The translations under genes were made by a program, and so were the position numbers. Positions 1,591 to 8,520 of a stretch of DNA of 64,000 nucleotides are shown in pieces. Source of the DNA: Bdellovibrio svalbardensis (lineage in GTDB: Bacteria > Bdellovibrionota > Bdellovibrionia > Bdellovibrionales > Bdellovibrionaceae); contig NZ_JANRMI010000001.1 of the NCBI RefSeq assembly GCF_029531655.1, positions 434,001 to 498,000 on the forward strand, read 5' to 3'. Each line of letters begins with the position of its first letter. Positions within the stretch are counted from its first letter, which is position 1. The notes beneath the pieces are model-generated. The model had not been told where the DNA came from, searched no databases, and saw only the letters and a program-made list of their open reading frames with translations.

Positions 1591-1936
1591 GGGGGCGTAC
1601 TGGCTTCGACGTGGGTGCTGAAACATAAGGAGCATACCGGGGCGGATGAGGACCTCGATAAAAACGTCCATTTTGTAATTGGCAACGATTACGCACTTGC
1701 AGCTTAATTGACTGCACGATCTCCCTTGAGGCGGCTGCGCTCTTGGATAGATTGTCACTTTAGTGGCCTCGGCGTGTTGGGTTTTCTCCAGCAGACTCGC
1801 TTAAATACACTGGGGGAATGTGTCGCGTATATTTTGTCTGTAGAAGCTGCGCGAACAAATTAAAATACTGACTAAGTATGTAGCGCCTTATCGCGGATCA
1901 CTTGCGGACGGGGGTTCAATTCCCCCCGCCTCCACC
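1591..1936 (+). ncRNA. ssrA: transfer-messenger RNA (tmRNA)
   Basis: tmRNA rescues stalled ribosomes by acting as an alanyl-tRNA and then as a short mRNA that tags the unfinished protein for proteolysis. The 5' end GGGGGCG pairs with CGCCTCC (1927-1933), giving the 7-bp acceptor stem with G-U at the third pair. The T-arm GGGGGTTCAATTCCCCC precedes it. The tag frame starts at GGC 1681 and reads GNDYALAA before TAA at 1705-1707. The conserved GACTGC block follows the stop. Only CC of the terminal CCA is encoded; the next base is T. A TATAAG hexamer at 1560-1565 may be the -10 element, but no good -35 was found. Confidence 0.95.
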
Positions 1937-1972
1937 TGAGGTGAAATCGAAAGATTTCGGCTGAGGTGGAGG
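1929..1972 (+). other. long hairpin overlapping the tmRNA 3' end
   Basis: Bases 1929-1948 can pair with 1953-1972 around a GAAA loop, with CCTCCACCT facing AGGTGGAGG at the base. The left arm includes the 3' strand of the tmRNA acceptor stem, so in the precursor this hairpin competes with the mature fold. It is not followed by a T-run. It could be a processing or termination signal. Confidence 0.6.
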
Positions 1973-2013
1973 TGTAAAAGTCCTCTTAAATCAATCATTT
2001 GTAATTCGATATC

Positions 2014-2067
2014 GGGTTCGATAAAAATAGATTTCTCTTAACCCCCTAGTTACGTCTTATCGAACCC
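2014..2067. repeat. perfect 11-bp inverted repeat upstream of the acetyltransferase gene
   Basis: GGGTTCGATAA (2014-2024) and TTATCGAACCC (2057-2067) are exact reverse complements separated by 32 bases. The core TTCGATAA recurs in the two direct repeats at 3537-3610 and 4703-4776. The position between tmRNA and the first accessory gene suggests an operator or a recombination site. Confidence 0.6.
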
Positions 2068-2093
2068 TTTCGCAGAAACGACGTGAGGAAGAG

Positions 2094-2939
2094 ATGCAAA
2101 TCGTCCAAGATGACTCTGCTCAAATATTTTTAGATAATTCAGCGGAATTGCTCTATCGAGATGAGCCCACCAACAGTCTTCTGATCGGTTTGTGCGAGAG
2201 CATGAGAATATCAGAACCAAAAATTGCGCCAATTTTACTTCGGTTTATCGATGGAGGCAAAACTGTCTCAGCAGCAATTCAAACGTTACCAATGAATTTG
2301 GTCCTAACATATTCGAACACAGGTCAGGTTGCCGTCTTGGCAAATTATCTTAATAAGATCAATGCCAGCTTTCCCGGAGTTGTTGGGCCAGCCGTAGAAT
2401 CAGAACTATTTGCAAATGCTTGGAGCGGGCTAACCGGTAAACCCAATAGACTGGGAATGGGACAAAAAATTTATAAAATCGAGCAAGTGGAATTTCTATC
2501 GGGAGTTGCTGGTGAGTTTCGATCTGCAGAAAAAAGGGATTTAGATCTTGTGACCGAATGGGTCATTGCTTTTGCAAAAGAGTCGCTCCCTATAGGTCCT
2601 CGCGGTGAGCAACACTGGAAAGACTTTGCAGAAAGATCTATTCAAAATAAAACGGCGTATCTTTGGACAATTGACGATGTTCCAGTCTCGATGGCGCACA
2701 CGGGGCGTCCCACAAAAAACGGTGTTTCCATTAGTGGTGTCTATACTCCATTAAACGAACGAAAAAAGGGGTATGCATCTGGCGTAGTTTCTCATCTTAG
2801 TCAGACGATGTTAGATTCGGGCAAAAGGTTCTGTGTTCTTTATACTGATCTAGCAAATCTTAATTCGAATAAGATTTATCAGAATATTGGGTATCGAGAA
2901 GTTTCTGACTCAAAACATTTTCTTTTTTCGGAAATATAA
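2094..2939 (+). CDS. GNAT family N-acetyltransferase
   Basis: This 281-residue protein is a predicted acetyl-CoA-dependent acetyltransferase. The C-terminal third carries the GNAT fold: a beta strand with VSMAHTGRP, then ISGVYTPLNERKKGYASGVV, which matches the V-x-T-P-x2-R-x2-G-Y acetyl-CoA loop of FR47-like members, and finally IYQNIGYREV. The N-terminal half is helical and unassigned. GAGGAAGAG lies just before the ATG. The gene is AT-rich, stands alone directly behind tmRNA, and has no obvious terminator. Substrate unknown; it may be cargo of an island at the tmRNA end. Confidence 0.8.
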   Translation: MQIVQDDSAQIFLDNSAELLYRDEPTNSLLIGLCESMRISEPKIAPILLRFIDGGKTVSAAIQTLPMNLVLTYSNTGQVAVLANYLNKINASFPGVVGPAVESELFANAWSGLTGKPNRLGMGQKIYKIEQVEFLSGVAGEFRSAEKRDLDLVTEWVIAFAKESLPIGPRGEQHWKDFAERSIQNKTAYLWTIDDVPVSMAHTGRPTKNGVSISGVYTPLNERKKGYASGVVSHLSQTMLDSGKRFCVLYTDLANLNSNKIYQNIGYREVSDSKHFLFSEI

Positions 2940-3155
2940 ACATGGTCAACCTTATGGATAATATTCCCAAATTTTCTATTTTGCTCCGCAACAAATATTG
3001 ATCTCTCGATTTTTTTAATTTACCCTTAAGCAGATTTATGCTGTGCTTCAATCAGCTTAAATTAGCGACCATAAAAATATCCCTTATTTTTTTGTTGAAA
3101 ATCGAATCAAATTCATGAAATAGAAATCTCAAAGCCTTTATGGCGGGAGATCTAC

Positions 3156-3449
3156 ATGAACTTACAAATCACATATATCAAGAAGCCTGTTCAAGGAAAA
3201 CACGAACACATTACTCATTGTGGAAATACGTCCGCCCGCTGGGAGCTATCCGTGGCGGATATCGTTTATCGAATTGAAGCTAAGATCGATAGCTTCTATG
3301 TCCAAGATCCCAGAACGGGTAAAGTTGCTTATGTGGGCGTCGTAAGATCAAGCAATCATGCTCCGTACCTTCGCACTTACGCCGACAACACATGGAACGA
3401 CAATTTACTTTCATTGCCGAACTTGTCTGTGCAAGACCGCGTTTATTAA
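3156..3449 (+). CDS. small protein of unknown function (97 aa)
   Basis: I do not recognise this protein. It has no signal peptide or membrane segment and is rich in beta-forming residues, with HITHCGNTSARWELSVADIVYRI in the first half (longer than any motif I know) and a basic, Tyr-rich second half. A GCGGGAGA ribosome-binding site precedes the ATG, and an intrinsic terminator follows 10 bases after the stop, which supports a real single-gene unit. It sits in the accessory stretch behind tmRNA. Confidence 0.65.
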   Translation: MNLQITYIKKPVQGKHEHITHCGNTSARWELSVADIVYRIEAKIDSFYVQDPRTGKVAYVGVVRSSNHAPYLRTYADNTWNDNLLSLPNLSVQDRVY

Positions 3450-3459
3450 TGATACTACC

Positions 3460-3490
3460 AGTGGAGGAAACTTCCTCCACTGTACTTTTC
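3460..3490 (+). terminator. intrinsic terminator of the 97-aa gene
   Basis: AGTGGAGGA (3460-3468) pairs with TCCTCCACT (3473-3481) around AACT, followed by the pyrimidine-rich stretch GTACTTTTCC. Confidence 0.7.
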
Positions 3491-3536
3491 CTCCATAATC
3501 AAGATTTTATAATTTAATGGTCTGAATGATTTCAAA

Positions 3537-3610
3537 AAGATAAGACGGATTCTGACGCTGGAGAAAGTTTCGATAACTCGCGACTCGCCGCCACCATTTT
3601 TCTAAATCAT
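3537..3610. repeat. imperfect direct repeat, left copy
   Basis: This segment aligns without gaps to 4703-4776. Both copies begin AAGATA, share GCTGGAG-A/G-AAGTTTCGATAA (3557-3576 and 4723-4742) and continue with common ACTC and ACCA blocks. The copies flank the AraC-type gene. Confidence 0.65.
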
Positions 3611-3746
3611 AGATCTTATTGATTTATTTTGGGTTCAATTCTCCTAGGGTAGCCTGAGGGAATTGAATTTCTGTTATTACTTTAGCAAGATAGATCAAAA
3701 ATCACCGCTGGAAGTCCGCTATACCCGTATTCAGCAGAGGGGCGTC

Positions 3747-4613
3747 ATGAGTGACCATGGATTTAGAGTATTTAAAGCGATCACGTATATCGATCAGAAT
3801 TTATTTGCGCAGATAGATTTGGAATCGATTGCTAGTGCGGGTGCATTTTCGCCGTTTCATTTCCATCGCGTTTTTACGAGCTTGATGGGAATGACGGTTA
3901 ACGAATATGTACGTAAGCGCCGCTTAAGCGAAGCCGCTCGCCGATTGATTGATACTGATCAAGATATCTTAGATCTTGCATTGGAGTGTCAGTACGAATC
4001 GCAAGAAGCTTTTACTCGCGCTTTTAAAAAAGCCTATGACATGGCACCAGGCCAACTCCGCAAAATGAAAAAGTCTATGGAGGTCAGTCGATCTTTAACA
4101 TTAGACGAGATCAACGCCTTAATTAAAGGAGATGCGGTGAAGCCAGAAGTTATAAAACAAAAAGCAAAGCGGTTAGTGGGAATTGCAAAAGCCTATGGTG
4201 ATTACGATTTCCAAGAGGCACACGATCAGTGGGATCAATTTGCGGCACGGTGGAGCGAACTGAAGCCAACTGACGAGAACATCGTCTATGGAATTCGACT
4301 GCCATCACATCCACTGGTTAATAACCCTGCGAAAAACGGATATGTATATTTAGCGGGCATCGAAGTAGGGCAAGACTTCGCTCTTCCGACGGGAATGACA
4401 GAGGTTATTCTTCCCGCAGGTAATTATGCGAAGTTTACGCACAAAGGTCATTTAGCTGACTCCGGTGATACCGCCAGAAAGATATGGAATGTGTGGATGC
4501 CTGAGAGTGGTCTTAAAATATTGGATGGGCTTTCGATTGAAGCGTATGGTCCAAAATTTGATCGTGAATCAGCCAACAGTGAATTTGATATTTTAGTGCC
4601 GATACACGATTGA
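3747..4613 (+). CDS. AraC family regulator with GyrI-like effector domain
   Basis: The layout is like Rob/SoxS-GyrI regulators. Two helix-turn-helix units fill residues 5-105 (IDLESIASAGAFSPFHFHR, then DILDLALECQYESQEAFTRA with the AraC ending). A GyrI-like small-molecule-binding domain fills residues 135-288. It probably senses a hydrophobic compound and activates transcription. The frame is open from 3663, but ATG 3747 has an AGAGGGG ribosome-binding site and begins where AraC homology begins, so I prefer it. The gene lies between two direct repeats (3537-3610, 4703-4776) and in front of a terminator. Its targets are unknown. Confidence 0.88.
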   Translation: MSDHGFRVFKAITYIDQNLFAQIDLESIASAGAFSPFHFHRVFTSLMGMTVNEYVRKRRLSEAARRLIDTDQDILDLALECQYESQEAFTRAFKKAYDMAPGQLRKMKKSMEVSRSLTLDEINALIKGDAVKPEVIKQKAKRLVGIAKAYGDYDFQEAHDQWDQFAARWSELKPTDENIVYGIRLPSHPLVNNPAKNGYVYLAGIEVGQDFALPTGMTEVILPAGNYAKFTHKGHLADSGDTARKIWNVWMPESGLKILDGLSIEAYGPKFDRESANSEFDILVPIHD

Positions 4614-4702
4614 TGTTAGTGGAGGAGTAAATATAATCTTCCATGCATAGAATACTTATTAAAACCGGCATTCGAGATTTTTATAGCTCCAATAATTCCG
4701 GC

Positions 4703-4776
4703 AAGATAGGATGGGTTTTGTTGCTGGAGGAAGTTTCGATAAGAATGAACTCGTTTCTACCAATTTAGAAAATAAA
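4703..4776. repeat. imperfect direct repeat, right copy
   Basis: This is the second copy of the repeat at 3537-3610, 1166 bases downstream and in the same orientation, just after the AraC-type gene. The best conserved part is 4723-4742. Its right end overlaps the following terminator. Confidence 0.65.
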
Positions 4777-4808
4777 GAACCACCCATTGCGGTGGTTCTT
4801 TATTTTTG
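4774..4808 (+). terminator. intrinsic terminator
   Basis: AAAGAACCACC (4774-4784) pairs perfectly with GGTGGTTCTTT (4791-4801), followed by ATTTTTG. It separates the AraC-type gene from the nuclease-methyltransferase module. Confidence 0.85.
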
Positions 4809-4887
4809 TGACTATGTTAATCCCTAGGTCTAAATTATAAATAAACAATAGATTGATTTACTTTACCGAGAGAGAATTTTTCAAGGC

Positions 4888-4916
4888 TTGAAGTAATTTG
4901 GTGTGCCTATTATATA
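4888..4916 (+). promoter_or_regulatory. sigma-70-like promoter of the nuclease-methyltransferase module
   Basis: TTGAAG (4888-4893) and TATATA (4911-4916) are 17 bases apart. Transcription would start near 4923, leaving a short leader with GAGG at 4931-4934 before the TTG start at 4941. Confidence 0.55.
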
Positions 4917-4940
4917 AGTCACAATTTGAAGAGGTTAAGT

Positions 4941-5549
4941 TTGGCTCGCATTTCCAGCATTAAAGCGGCTTTGCTTGAAGAAGCTATTTTGTACTTGCTC
5001 GAAGATTCCTGCTATACGACTGTACAATCGGTTCCAAATATTAATCGTAGAGATCCATATCTCGAGAATGCCCCGAATGGAATATGCGTCTTAGGGCGTG
5101 GCGAGAAACACCAAATAGATGCCATCGCGGACTATGTTTTTCCGCCGCCATTCTCCAATCCCCTTCGTTTGCTTTGTGAAGCCAAGTATAGCGAGGGAAA
5201 TCCCGTCGGAATAAGCATTATTAGAAATGCTGTGGGTGTGAAAAAGGATGTAGAGGAATATTTTCGTCCTAGTTCTAATCGCCGTACAAGTAGGTATCAC
5301 TATCAATATGCTGTAATATCTTCCAGTGGGTTCACGGTAAATGCACAAAACTACGCGTATGCACAAGATATTTACCTTCTTGATCTAAGTGCAGATATCT
5401 ATGAGAGTATCATTATTGATGTCATCGATTTGTATGTTGAAACGGTGATTGTACAACCTCTCAAAGATAAAGGTCACCGCATCAAATGGAATACCGATAT
5501 TAATATAGATTTAAAATATCTTAGAGAGACCTTTCGAGGAACTTTATGA
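4941..5549 (+). CDS. PD-(D/E)XK nuclease-like protein (Mrr-type fold)
   Basis: This 202-residue protein is probably a DNA endonuclease. Seen in order: an N-terminal helix with LLEEAILYLLED, then HQIDAIADY (about residue 55) and LRLLCEAKYS (about residue 75), which fit the D and E-x-K of the PD-(D/E)XK site. YAVISSSGFTVNAQNYA with IYLLDL resembles the closing strand and helix of Mrr-type catalytic domains. No separate DNA-binding domain is visible. TTG 4941 is preferred over TTG 4926 because GAGG lies 6 bases upstream. The stop overlaps the next start by 4 bases (ATGA), so it is translationally coupled. First gene of a four-gene AT-rich module. Confidence 0.7.
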   Translation: MARISSIKAALLEEAILYLLEDSCYTTVQSVPNINRRDPYLENAPNGICVLGRGEKHQIDAIADYVFPPPFSNPLRLLCEAKYSEGNPVGISIIRNAVGVKKDVEEYFRPSSNRRTSRYHYQYAVISSSGFTVNAQNYAYAQDIYLLDLSADIYESIIIDVIDLYVETVIVQPLKDKGHRIKWNTDINIDLKYLRETFRGTL

Positions 5550-5974
5550 CCGATGGTAATGTTGAAGTTGAAAAACATCAAATTGATGAACTGGTCAGTA
5601 AAGTAAAAGCTGATATTTCTAGAAATAAAGGAAAAGTTATCCTTGGTGTCTTTAATGACAAAATTCCCGTTATTTTGAGACATGAAGGGGAGCGCCCGCT
5701 GATCCATGAGCTTTTTAACGAACGTGAATATCGCATCCATTTTGAGGATATCAATGGGGTTTGGTGGATTCAGCTGAATAATAGTTCTGCGAGGTTTGCT
5801 TTTTATATTCCTGAAGAACTAAAAAAAATAATTGCGAGTAATCCGATATCCAATGTCTTGGATGTGAAGCAAAGGCATATGTCGACGCTCACAATAACAT
5901 ATCGATTTAATGGCAATGCGATTACTGTCAAATTATTCGTTGATTCAGAATGGATTAAAAAATTGATAGTTTGA
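5546..5974 (+). CDS. unknown protein coupled to the nuclease-like gene
   Basis: I do not recognise this 142-residue protein. It is soluble, with no signal peptide, and mixes helix (residues 5-25) with predicted beta strands such as KVILGVF, WWIQL and TLTITYRF. The start overlaps the stop of the nuclease-like gene by 4 bases, so the two products are probably made together and may act as partners, for example nuclease and specificity or inhibitor subunit. That role is inference. A 121-base gap with a palindrome separates it from the ParB-like gene. Confidence 0.7.
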   Translation: MTDGNVEVEKHQIDELVSKVKADISRNKGKVILGVFNDKIPVILRHEGERPLIHELFNEREYRIHFEDINGVWWIQLNNSSARFAFYIPEELKKIIASNPISNVLDVKQRHMSTLTITYRFNGNAITVKLFVDSEWIKKLIV

Positions 5975-6060
5975 TAAGTAATTATTGAGACGCAAAAACT
6001 AGACCTCTGGCAAAAAAAATAAATTCTTCTGGACACAGATGATTCCAAGTACTTTAAATA

Positions 6061-6085
6061 AGTAAACAAACATTAATTGTTTACT
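6061..6085. promoter_or_regulatory. palindrome upstream of the ParB-like gene
   Basis: AGTAAACAA (6061-6069) and TTGTTTACT (6077-6085) are perfect inverted repeats with a 7-base centre. They end just before the TGGAG ribosome-binding site of the gene at 6096. No T-run follows, so an operator is more likely than a terminator. Confidence 0.55.
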
Positions 6086-6095
6086 GGAGTGGCGA

Positions 6096-7442
6096 ATGTC
6101 CGAATGGAATCGGCAAGATTTACAGTTGTCCAACTTAGAGCTAAACACTCAAAATCCCCGATTCGAGATGGCCGGTGATCAACGAGAAGCCATCAGAACG
6201 ATGCTGAATGAGCAGTCAGACAAAATTATAAATCTTGCAGAAGATATTATCAAGTTCGGACTAAACCCGTCAGAGTCAGCAATTGTCGCTCCAGTTGAAA
6301 CTGTAAAAGGAATATTTGTAGTGTTAGAGGGTAATCGCAGAATTACTGCTCTTAAGCTGCTAGACAACCCAGATTTTGCATCCTTTGATAAAGCACTGCT
6401 CAAGAAATTCAAGGAACTCTCTAGTGGATATAAGAAAATAAAATCTATAAGCTGTATAGTTTTTGATGATCCAGATAATGCAAATAAGTGGATTAAGCTT
6501 AAACATACCGGGGAGAATGAAGGGGTTGGCACCGTTCGTTGGAACACTCAGCAGCAGGCGAGATTTGAGGAAAGTGTTGGTGGCAACACGGCAGAGGCAC
6601 TTCAGGTGATCGACTTTTTAAAAAAGAGTTCGTATGTATCTCAAGATGTAAAGTCTAACTTGGGAAAAGTCCCTGCTACTAATCTTGAGAGAATAATAAA
6701 AGATAGAAATATGCAATCTGTTCTTGGTATCACGATCGAGGATGGGAAAGTTAACACAGACTTTGAGGAGTCGGAAGTTGTAAAAGGCCTGACAAAAGTT
6801 GTTAACGACTTGGTTTCCAAAGCCATAAAAGTTAAAGATATTTACACGAAAAAAGATCGCGAGAAGTACATTGAAACTTTTGGAAAAGGTGACCTCCCCT
6901 CTAAGGGAAAGAAAGCTCCGGCAAAGTGGGAAGTGGTTGCATCATCAAGGGGCACTGTGCCTACAGCTACCACAAAAAGTAGATCTAAGAAGCCGAATCC
7001 TCTCTCTGCATCAAGAGTTTCGTTAATTCCTAAGGACTGCATTCTTAAGATATCAGAAAGACGTATTAACAAAGTGTATCAAGAGCTAAAAAGCATGAAT
7101 TGTGACGAATATGTCAATGCTGCCGCAGTCCTTATGCGTGTTTTTGTTGAGTTAAGTGTAGATGCCTATATCGAACGAAAGAAGCTACCGAAGCTAAATA
7201 GCGATTCAAAACTGCAATTGAAGATAAATGGAGTTGCGGATCATCTTGAACAAAGTGGGATTATTCATAAGCAGGAGTTGAAAGGTATTCGCGCTAGTGG
7301 CGGTAATATTCATCACATGCTGTCTGCGAATACATTCAATGCGTACGTGCATAATAAGTCTTTCAATCCTGTTGCGAATGAGCTTAAAATTAACTGGGAT
7401 AACATTCAACTATTCGTCGAAGCAATCTGGAGTCAAGTGTAA
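6096..7442 (+). CDS. ParB-like protein with possible HEPN-like C-terminus
   Basis: This 448-residue protein begins with a ParB/Srx-type fold: LSNLELNTQNPRF at the start and VLEGNRRITALKLL near residue 78, which matches the G-x2-R-x2-A-L nucleotide-binding signature of ParB N-terminal domains. The middle is Lys/Ser-rich and probably a linker (residues 255-300). The last 140 residues are helical, with MRVFVELSVDAYIE and an Arg-Asn-His-His pattern (IRASGGNIHHML) that recalls HEPN or Abi-type C-termini; this last point is uncertain. TGGAG precedes the ATG. TAATG joins it to the methyltransferase gene. It is not a chromosome-partition ParB: no ParA and no parS were seen. Confidence 0.75.
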   Translation: MSEWNRQDLQLSNLELNTQNPRFEMAGDQREAIRTMLNEQSDKIINLAEDIIKFGLNPSESAIVAPVETVKGIFVVLEGNRRITALKLLDNPDFASFDKALLKKFKELSSGYKKIKSISCIVFDDPDNANKWIKLKHTGENEGVGTVRWNTQQQARFEESVGGNTAEALQVIDFLKKSSYVSQDVKSNLGKVPATNLERIIKDRNMQSVLGITIEDGKVNTDFEESEVVKGLTKVVNDLVSKAIKVKDIYTKKDREKYIETFGKGDLPSKGKKAPAKWEVVASSRGTVPTATTKSRSKKPNPLSASRVSLIPKDCILKISERRINKVYQELKSMNCDEYVNAAAVLMRVFVELSVDAYIERKKLPKLNSDSKLQLKINGVADHLEQSGIIHKQELKGIRASGGNIHHMLSANTFNAYVHNKSFNPVANELKINWDNIQLFVEAIWSQV

Positions 7443-8311
7443 TGGAGTTCTTTTCTCCATTAAGATACCCGGGTGGTAAAGCTAAGCTGTCCAAATATAT
7501 GGGGCTCGTTTTAGATACAAATCGGCTTGGTGATGCAGACTTCGTAGAGCCTTTCGCGGGCGGTGCTTCTATAGGTCTTTATCTATTGGCAAATGCGTAT
7601 GCAAGAAAGCTATACTTAAACGATATTGATATATCTATTTATGCTTTCTGGCATTCCATATTGAATCACCCTGAGGATTTTTGCCGAAAAATAGAGAAGA
7701 TTCCAGTTGATCTCAAGAATTGGCGAGAGCAAAAGGAGATTCAAAGAAATCGCTATGAATCCAATTTATTTGATTTGGGATTCTCCACCTTCTTTCTAAA
7801 TCGTACAAATCGTTCGGGCATTATGAACGGTGGTGTAATTGGCAGCCTAAAACAAGATGGTCCTTGGAAAATTGATAGTCGTTTCAATAAAGTAGAATTG
7901 ATTCGCAGAATTGAGAGAATAGCCGACTTTGCAGGCAGGATATCCGTTCATAATCGAGATGCATGCGATTTTGTAAAAGAAATTAAACCAGTTTTATCAA
8001 AGAAGTCTTTAGTTTATTTAGATCCGCCATATCTTGAAAAGGGGCCGTCTCTTTATAGAAAATATTTTGATCAAGATGACCATGCAAATATGGCGGAATT
8101 TCTGAAAGAATCTGAAGATTTAAAGTGGGTCATTTCATATGACAATCACAGTATATTGCAGAAGCTATACAAAACATATGAGAGAGTTGAATTTACGTTG
8201 AGCTATAGTGCTGCAGGAAATCAATTCGGTGGAGAAGTCATATATTTTGCAAAGAGCATGGCTGTGCCGAATATTTCGGAAATCGGTGTAAATGGTGAAT
8301 TAATGATTTGA
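7442..8311 (+). CDS. Dam-family (D12) DNA adenine methyltransferase
   Basis: This enzyme transfers a methyl group from AdoMet to adenine N6 in DNA. The class-alpha D12 order is visible: LRYPGGKAKL at residue 7, the AdoMet motif FVEPFAGGASIGLYLL near residue 35, FFLNRTNRSGIMNGG near 118, and the catalytic motif VYLDPPYLEKG near 190. The length of 289 fits the family. The start overlaps the ParB-like stop (TAATG). It is the last gene of the module, and a hairpin begins at its stop codon. The target sequence is unknown. AT-richness (20 of 60 bases G+C at 7621-7680) suggests transfer. Confidence 0.92.
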   Translation: MEFFSPLRYPGGKAKLSKYMGLVLDTNRLGDADFVEPFAGGASIGLYLLANAYARKLYLNDIDISIYAFWHSILNHPEDFCRKIEKIPVDLKNWREQKEIQRNRYESNLFDLGFSTFFLNRTNRSGIMNGGVIGSLKQDGPWKIDSRFNKVELIRRIERIADFAGRISVHNRDACDFVKEIKPVLSKKSLVYLDPPYLEKGPSLYRKYFDQDDHANMAEFLKESEDLKWVISYDNHSILQKLYKTYERVEFTLSYSAAGNQFGGEVIYFAKSMAVPNISEIGVNGELMI

Positions 8312-8330
8312 GATATCAAAAGATATCTCA
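8309..8330 (+). terminator. hairpin at the end of the methyltransferase gene
   Basis: TGAGATATC (8309-8317) and GATATCTCA (8322-8330) pair perfectly around AAAA and include the stop codon. There is no T-run. The rest of the gap to 8520 has no gene I can support. Confidence 0.5.
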
Positions 8331-8520
8331 TCACTGCAGCCGCGGTAATTCGTAAAAAGTATATGCAGGAAAATATACTCCGCTTTATTTTTTTCTTCAA
8401 AAACCACCATTCAGATTTTTGGTCGGAATAAATCACACAGCTTGGGTTATTTGACTATGTGTCTCCGGAATGTCAAAAGGTGGCTTCGATGGTGGTGCGC
8501 TAATAAAATTAGAAACTAAA

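Follow-up and report, generated by a model that had tools for sequence, protein, structure and literature searches.

The four consecutive genes at positions 4941-8311 of the window, the 64,000-nucleotide stretch of Bdellovibrio svalbardensis DNA analysed here, very probably form two independent defence modules lying side by side, namely a PD-λ-5 pair made up of genes 3 and 4 and a two-chain nuclease encoded by genes 1 and 2. What seemed to be a new four-gene system is thereby resolved into a known defence pair and an unnamed nuclease family. The two pairs are most likely adjacent through a shared defence-gene neighbourhood, the variable region that follows the tmRNA gene. In the preliminary description of this locus the arrangement was considered to be unlike known systems; genes 3 and 4, however, correspond to the described PD-λ-5.

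All four genes are present on the + strand. Gene 1 (p1, 4941-5549) and gene 2 (p2, 5546-5974) overlap in ATGA, and gene 3 (6096-7442) and gene 4 (7442-8311) overlap in TAATG, as had been described. The gap between genes 2 and 3 is 121 bp in length and holds a leader (5998-6095, +) that is conserved with a congener and contains an inverted repeat; therefore, the four genes are best seen as two pairs. The repeat (6061-6085) has perfect arms of 9 bp, is located directly 5' of the ribosome-binding site of gene 3 and is kept only in part in the congener; it is a possible candidate operator. Hairpins reported at both ends of the stretch could be located. The one 5' of the module (4769-4806) stands between the gene for an AraC-type regulator upstream and the module, and is a strong bidirectional terminator-like element with 16-bp perfect arms and a 6-nt loop (-22.4 kcal/mol, z -6.6; equally stable shuffles, 0 of 200). 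Another hairpin, of 9 bp, lies where gene 4 ends (8309-8330) and lacks a T tract, the folded stretch 8306-8345 having an energy of -14.4 kcal/mol. The promoter proposed in front of the genes did not stand out from chance, since a scan of the region for sigma-70-like promoters gave 14 sites as compared to 12.5 in shuffles (sd 3.5).

By their sequences, genes 3 and 4 (6096-8311) belong to PD-λ-5, a known anti-phage system of two genes that was discovered in E. coli by functional selection (Vassallo 2022, PMC9519451) and characterised as a compacted RM+Abi system (PMC9519451). Gene 3 matches the PADLOC model PD-Lambda-5_A (2.9e-156), with residues 3-446 aligned to positions 3-465 of the 466 in the profile, and gene 4, which adjoins it through the TAATG overlap, matches PD-Lambda-5_B (1.1e-110). 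The earlier view of the locus as defence-related is borne out by these matches. Gene 4 is also recognised as a D12-class (Dam-like) N6-adenine DNA methyltransferase, as previously proposed (Pfam PF02086, 4.1e-19), and has a relative of solved structure (7m6b, 1.8e-17). The E. coli system provides broad defence against phages, and the host used for work on it carried a deletion of the mrr region (PMC9519451); protection has been shown for this system only (PMC9519451). The literature searched describes the mode of action of PD-λ-5 in general terms, with no detailed mechanism, and no close E. coli relative emerged when an IMG/VR pair was used for the search.

A model of gene 3 was built from 22 aligned sequences (pLDDT 84.8, pTM 0.58) and agrees with the ParB-type fold suggested earlier. 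The predicted N-terminal domain adopts a ParB/sulfiredoxin-type fold with Noc, ParB, KorB and Srx among its matches (highest Z 10.1, for Noc/ParB), and a GNRR motif of the G-x-x-R nucleotide-binding type is invariant in the alignment. The combination of this modelled fold and the motif places the N-terminus in the ParB/Srx superfamily. It is followed by a linker (residues ~281-302) of low model confidence and by a helical C-terminal domain (residues 318-447) which resembles AbiA and HEPN-MNT toxins in the model with Z of 7-9, a range where a common helical arrangement alone may match. Residues R348, E352 and H419 are invariant in the alignment, in which no canonical Rx4-6H motif is seen. No Pfam family recognises the C-terminal domain, and gene 3 has no significant sequence match among solved structures. 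The model thus suggests a ParB-type domain fused to a HEPN-like domain, and we hypothesize that the latter may have HEPN activity. If component A indeed couples a ParB-type sensor to a HEPN-like effector, PD-λ-5 would have a concrete mechanism.

Genes 1 and 2 are, as judged from sequence alignment, one Mrr-like PD-(D/E)XK nuclease divided at its linker. Gene 1 encodes the N-terminal catalytic half; its start is best placed at the TTG at 4941 rather than at 4926, with AGAGG six bases upstream and an N-terminus that coincides with the starts of its homologues. Taken alone, it gives a sub-threshold match to Pfam Mrr_cat (0.073, 13.6 bits), while its homologue in Calothrix (L022) scores 22.6 bits against PF04471, above the threshold of 21 bits, so that the Mrr-like assignment made earlier is upheld. 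The catalytic-type motifs HQID and EAK are intact in gene 1 and aligned across the family, which gives the D...E-x-K motif within an Mrr-type core. Gene 2, listed as unknown in the preliminary description, encodes the C-terminal part of this nuclease as a separate protein of 142 aa. It keeps the F-x-F-x-(I/L)-P motif conserved in the C-terminal part of the family and, in the single-chain homologues, aligns with residues ~221-332 (E values from 1e-8 to 5e-5). Together, p1 and p2 amount to 344 aa and can be aligned over their full length with the single-chain forms (337-351 aa) at 30-35% identity. These include the homologues of Nostoc (L023, L025) and Calothrix, of 337-344 aa, and a 351-aa 'restriction endonuclease' from a Priestia plasmid which matches gene 1 (34%) and then gene 2. 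The break falls in the linker of the single-chain form. Gene 2 starts at an ATG within the ATGA overlap, six bases after a ribosome-binding-like GAGG. A similar two-ORF form is present in Ca. Manganitrophus (L024). Some other relatives look damaged, with an in-frame stop (L021), a truncation (L026) or a change of frame (L027).

The nuclease family is unnamed, and no model in PADLOC, NCBIfam or Pfam spans the whole protein. When gene 1 was used as a single query, viral and genome contigs yielded no relatives, and tblastn against phages also found none. A two-row profile, obtained by way of the Priestia plasmid relative, recovered seven more relatives in genome contigs and none in viral contigs. 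The total is eight relatives, several of them on short contigs. The nuclease has no significant sequence match to solved structures, and its AlphaFold model was set aside (pLDDT 47).

The distribution of the two pairs indicates that they do not travel together. Among the 38 viral loci with a full-length or near full-length component A (L028-L065), methyltransferase B is present at 36, nearly always adjacent; one of the two exceptions (L055) ends at a contig end. None of these 38 loci has the nuclease. In a subgroup of the phage loci (L019, L037, L044, L045, L051, L052, L058, L062 and L064) the methyltransferase gene does not follow gene A but is oriented convergently to it. Two congeners and two members of another family, all of the same class, likewise carry components A and B and lack the nuclease (4/4), and in a class-wide sample of 144 genomes the nuclease was found solely in the genome of the window. 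Conversely, A and B are absent from all eight nuclease loci in other phyla, some of which are on short contigs. The neighbours of PD-λ-5 in the four class genomes are a type IIG-like R-M gene (G017), an AbiH-like gene (G019), a RES/Xre toxin-antitoxin pair (G130) and a phage integrase (G131). Upstream of the congener PD-λ-5, in the place of the split nuclease, lies a candidate type IIG-like restriction-methyltransferase of 860 aa (L006:8801-11383, - strand), with weak Pfam and PADLOC matches only. Near PD-λ-5 in G019 (L007:9499-14358, - strand), a 961-aa protein with no Pfam match is present beside genes of 238 aa and 427 aa, possibly another uncharacterised defence cluster.

Comparison with the congener G017 locates the boundary between the two pairs. 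Gene 3 is 84% and gene 4 is 82% identical, and homology at the DNA level begins at ~5998, 24 bases past the end of gene 2. It includes the leader of gene 3, which is 73% identical over 111 nt (E 2e-12; the first 13 nt of gene 3 included), and therefore a module boundary is placed between genes 2 and 3. In all three genomes of the genus in which PD-λ-5 was found (window 1591-8311, L110 and L115), the pair follows the tmRNA gene at a distance of 4-11 kb, a position suggestive of an insertion hotspot. Other genes of this region vary among the congener regions examined, and the GC content of genes 1-4 is 35-40% as compared to ~46% in the remainder of the window; the low GC and the variability of the region fit acquired DNA. 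No integrase is seen adjoining the module in the window. The region from tmRNA to module differs in each of the congeners examined, and none of them offers an exact empty site.

Relatives of the nuclease also occur near other defence-type genes, among them BREX operons of two Nostoc genomes (L023:2000-12078 and L025:4964-13419). In both, brxC and pglX flank the relative, and brxA and brxB stand upstream; Pfam and PADLOC back the identities of the BREX genes in L025 and that of brxA in L023. PD-(D/E)XK nucleases inside BREX core loci have already been described as auxiliary or backup effectors (PMC12839542). At the window locus no ORFs as large as those of the BREX core (brxC, pglX, pglZ) are present within ~5 kb upstream and 8 kb downstream, and PADLOC gave zero BREX matches for the four window proteins. 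It could be speculated, with little confidence, that the split nuclease acts as a portable effector, added to defence systems that methylate adenine (PD-λ-5 here, BREX in Nostoc), and that it distinguishes self from non-self by the mark which these systems place on DNA. Having no methyltransferase itself, it would then borrow one.

According to the preliminary description, the four genes form one unit, with the nuclease under the control of the ParB-like protein. In a system of this kind the methyltransferase would mark self, the split nuclease would cut unmarked DNA and the ParB-like protein would license the nuclease. The common strand, the tight spacing and the fitting enzymatic logic are in keeping with this proposal, as is the occurrence of the nuclease family beside another adenine-methylation system (BREX pglX) in the two Nostoc genomes. 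However, co-conservation is absent in both directions, the very observation which the preliminary description had named as refuting it, and a single system with ParB-like control of the nuclease is therefore very unlikely; the ParB-like protein pairs instead with the methyltransferase as PD-λ-5. Moreover, E. coli PD-λ-5 defends its host without such a nuclease (PMC9519451), and the PD-λ-5 unit has a conserved leader of its own. Less probable still is a classical type II restriction-modification system, in which the nuclease of genes 1 and 2 and the methyltransferase of gene 4 would share one recognition sequence. The nuclease and the Dam-like methyltransferase are indeed less than 3.4 kb apart, but the methyltransferase travels with gene 3 and not with the nuclease, two congeners retain gene 4 with no copy of the nuclease, and each enzyme is found without the other rather than inherited jointly.

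A further alternative concerns the nuclease gene itself, which may be decaying after a frameshift split it and its function was lost, leaving PD-λ-5 alone active. The broken appearance of the three relatives mentioned above favours this, whereas the position of the break in the linker, the start codon and GAGG of the second half, the conserved residues kept in both halves and the two-ORF form in Ca. Manganitrophus speak against it. We consider decay unlikely, though worth keeping in view; as a variant of the two-module explanation, it shares part of its probability with the latter. Against two independent modules it may be said that the pairs lie on one strand with 121 bp between them, so that co-transcription is possible, and the known relatives of the nuclease are few and partly on short contigs.

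With two neighbouring modules as the preferred explanation, gene 4 would methylate adenines in the host DNA as a mark of self; the use of an mrr-deletion host for E. coli PD-λ-5 is consistent with an active adenine mark. The ParB-like domain modelled in gene 3 may read DNA in a nucleotide-dependent manner, and upon meeting foreign or wrongly marked DNA the HEPN-like C-terminal domain might fire and harm the cell or the phage. The products of genes 1 and 2 would be translationally coupled chains which assemble into a single enzyme, and this nuclease probably restricts incoming DNA alone, as an auxiliary defence nuclease. A nuclease family whose C-terminal domain can be a separate chain, and which is found inside BREX operons, is a lead in its own right.

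Compared with known systems, genes 3 and 4 resemble E. coli PD-λ-5 in holding both components in the order A-B on one strand, with A matched over its full length and B over almost its full length. They differ in that the window copy is chromosomal, outside E. coli and any recognised prophage, and has the split nuclease immediately upstream. In its predicted fold, the C-terminal domain of gene 3 (residues 318-447) may resemble HEPN effectors (the AbiA C-terminal domain, HEPN-MNT toxins and Csm6); it departs from them in that R348/E352/H419 are invariant but no canonical Rx4-6H motif is seen, and the Z is middling. With the Mrr/PF04471 endonucleases, the nuclease family shares the PD-(D/E)XK core motifs, its members matching from weakly up to threshold; unlike them, it adds a C-terminal domain of ~140 aa with no Pfam match, which is a separate protein here. 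Finally, the two Nostoc relatives of genes 1 and 2 resemble the auxiliary BREX nucleases (PMC12839542) by their place between brxC and pglX, whereas the copy in the window stands without adjoining BREX genes.
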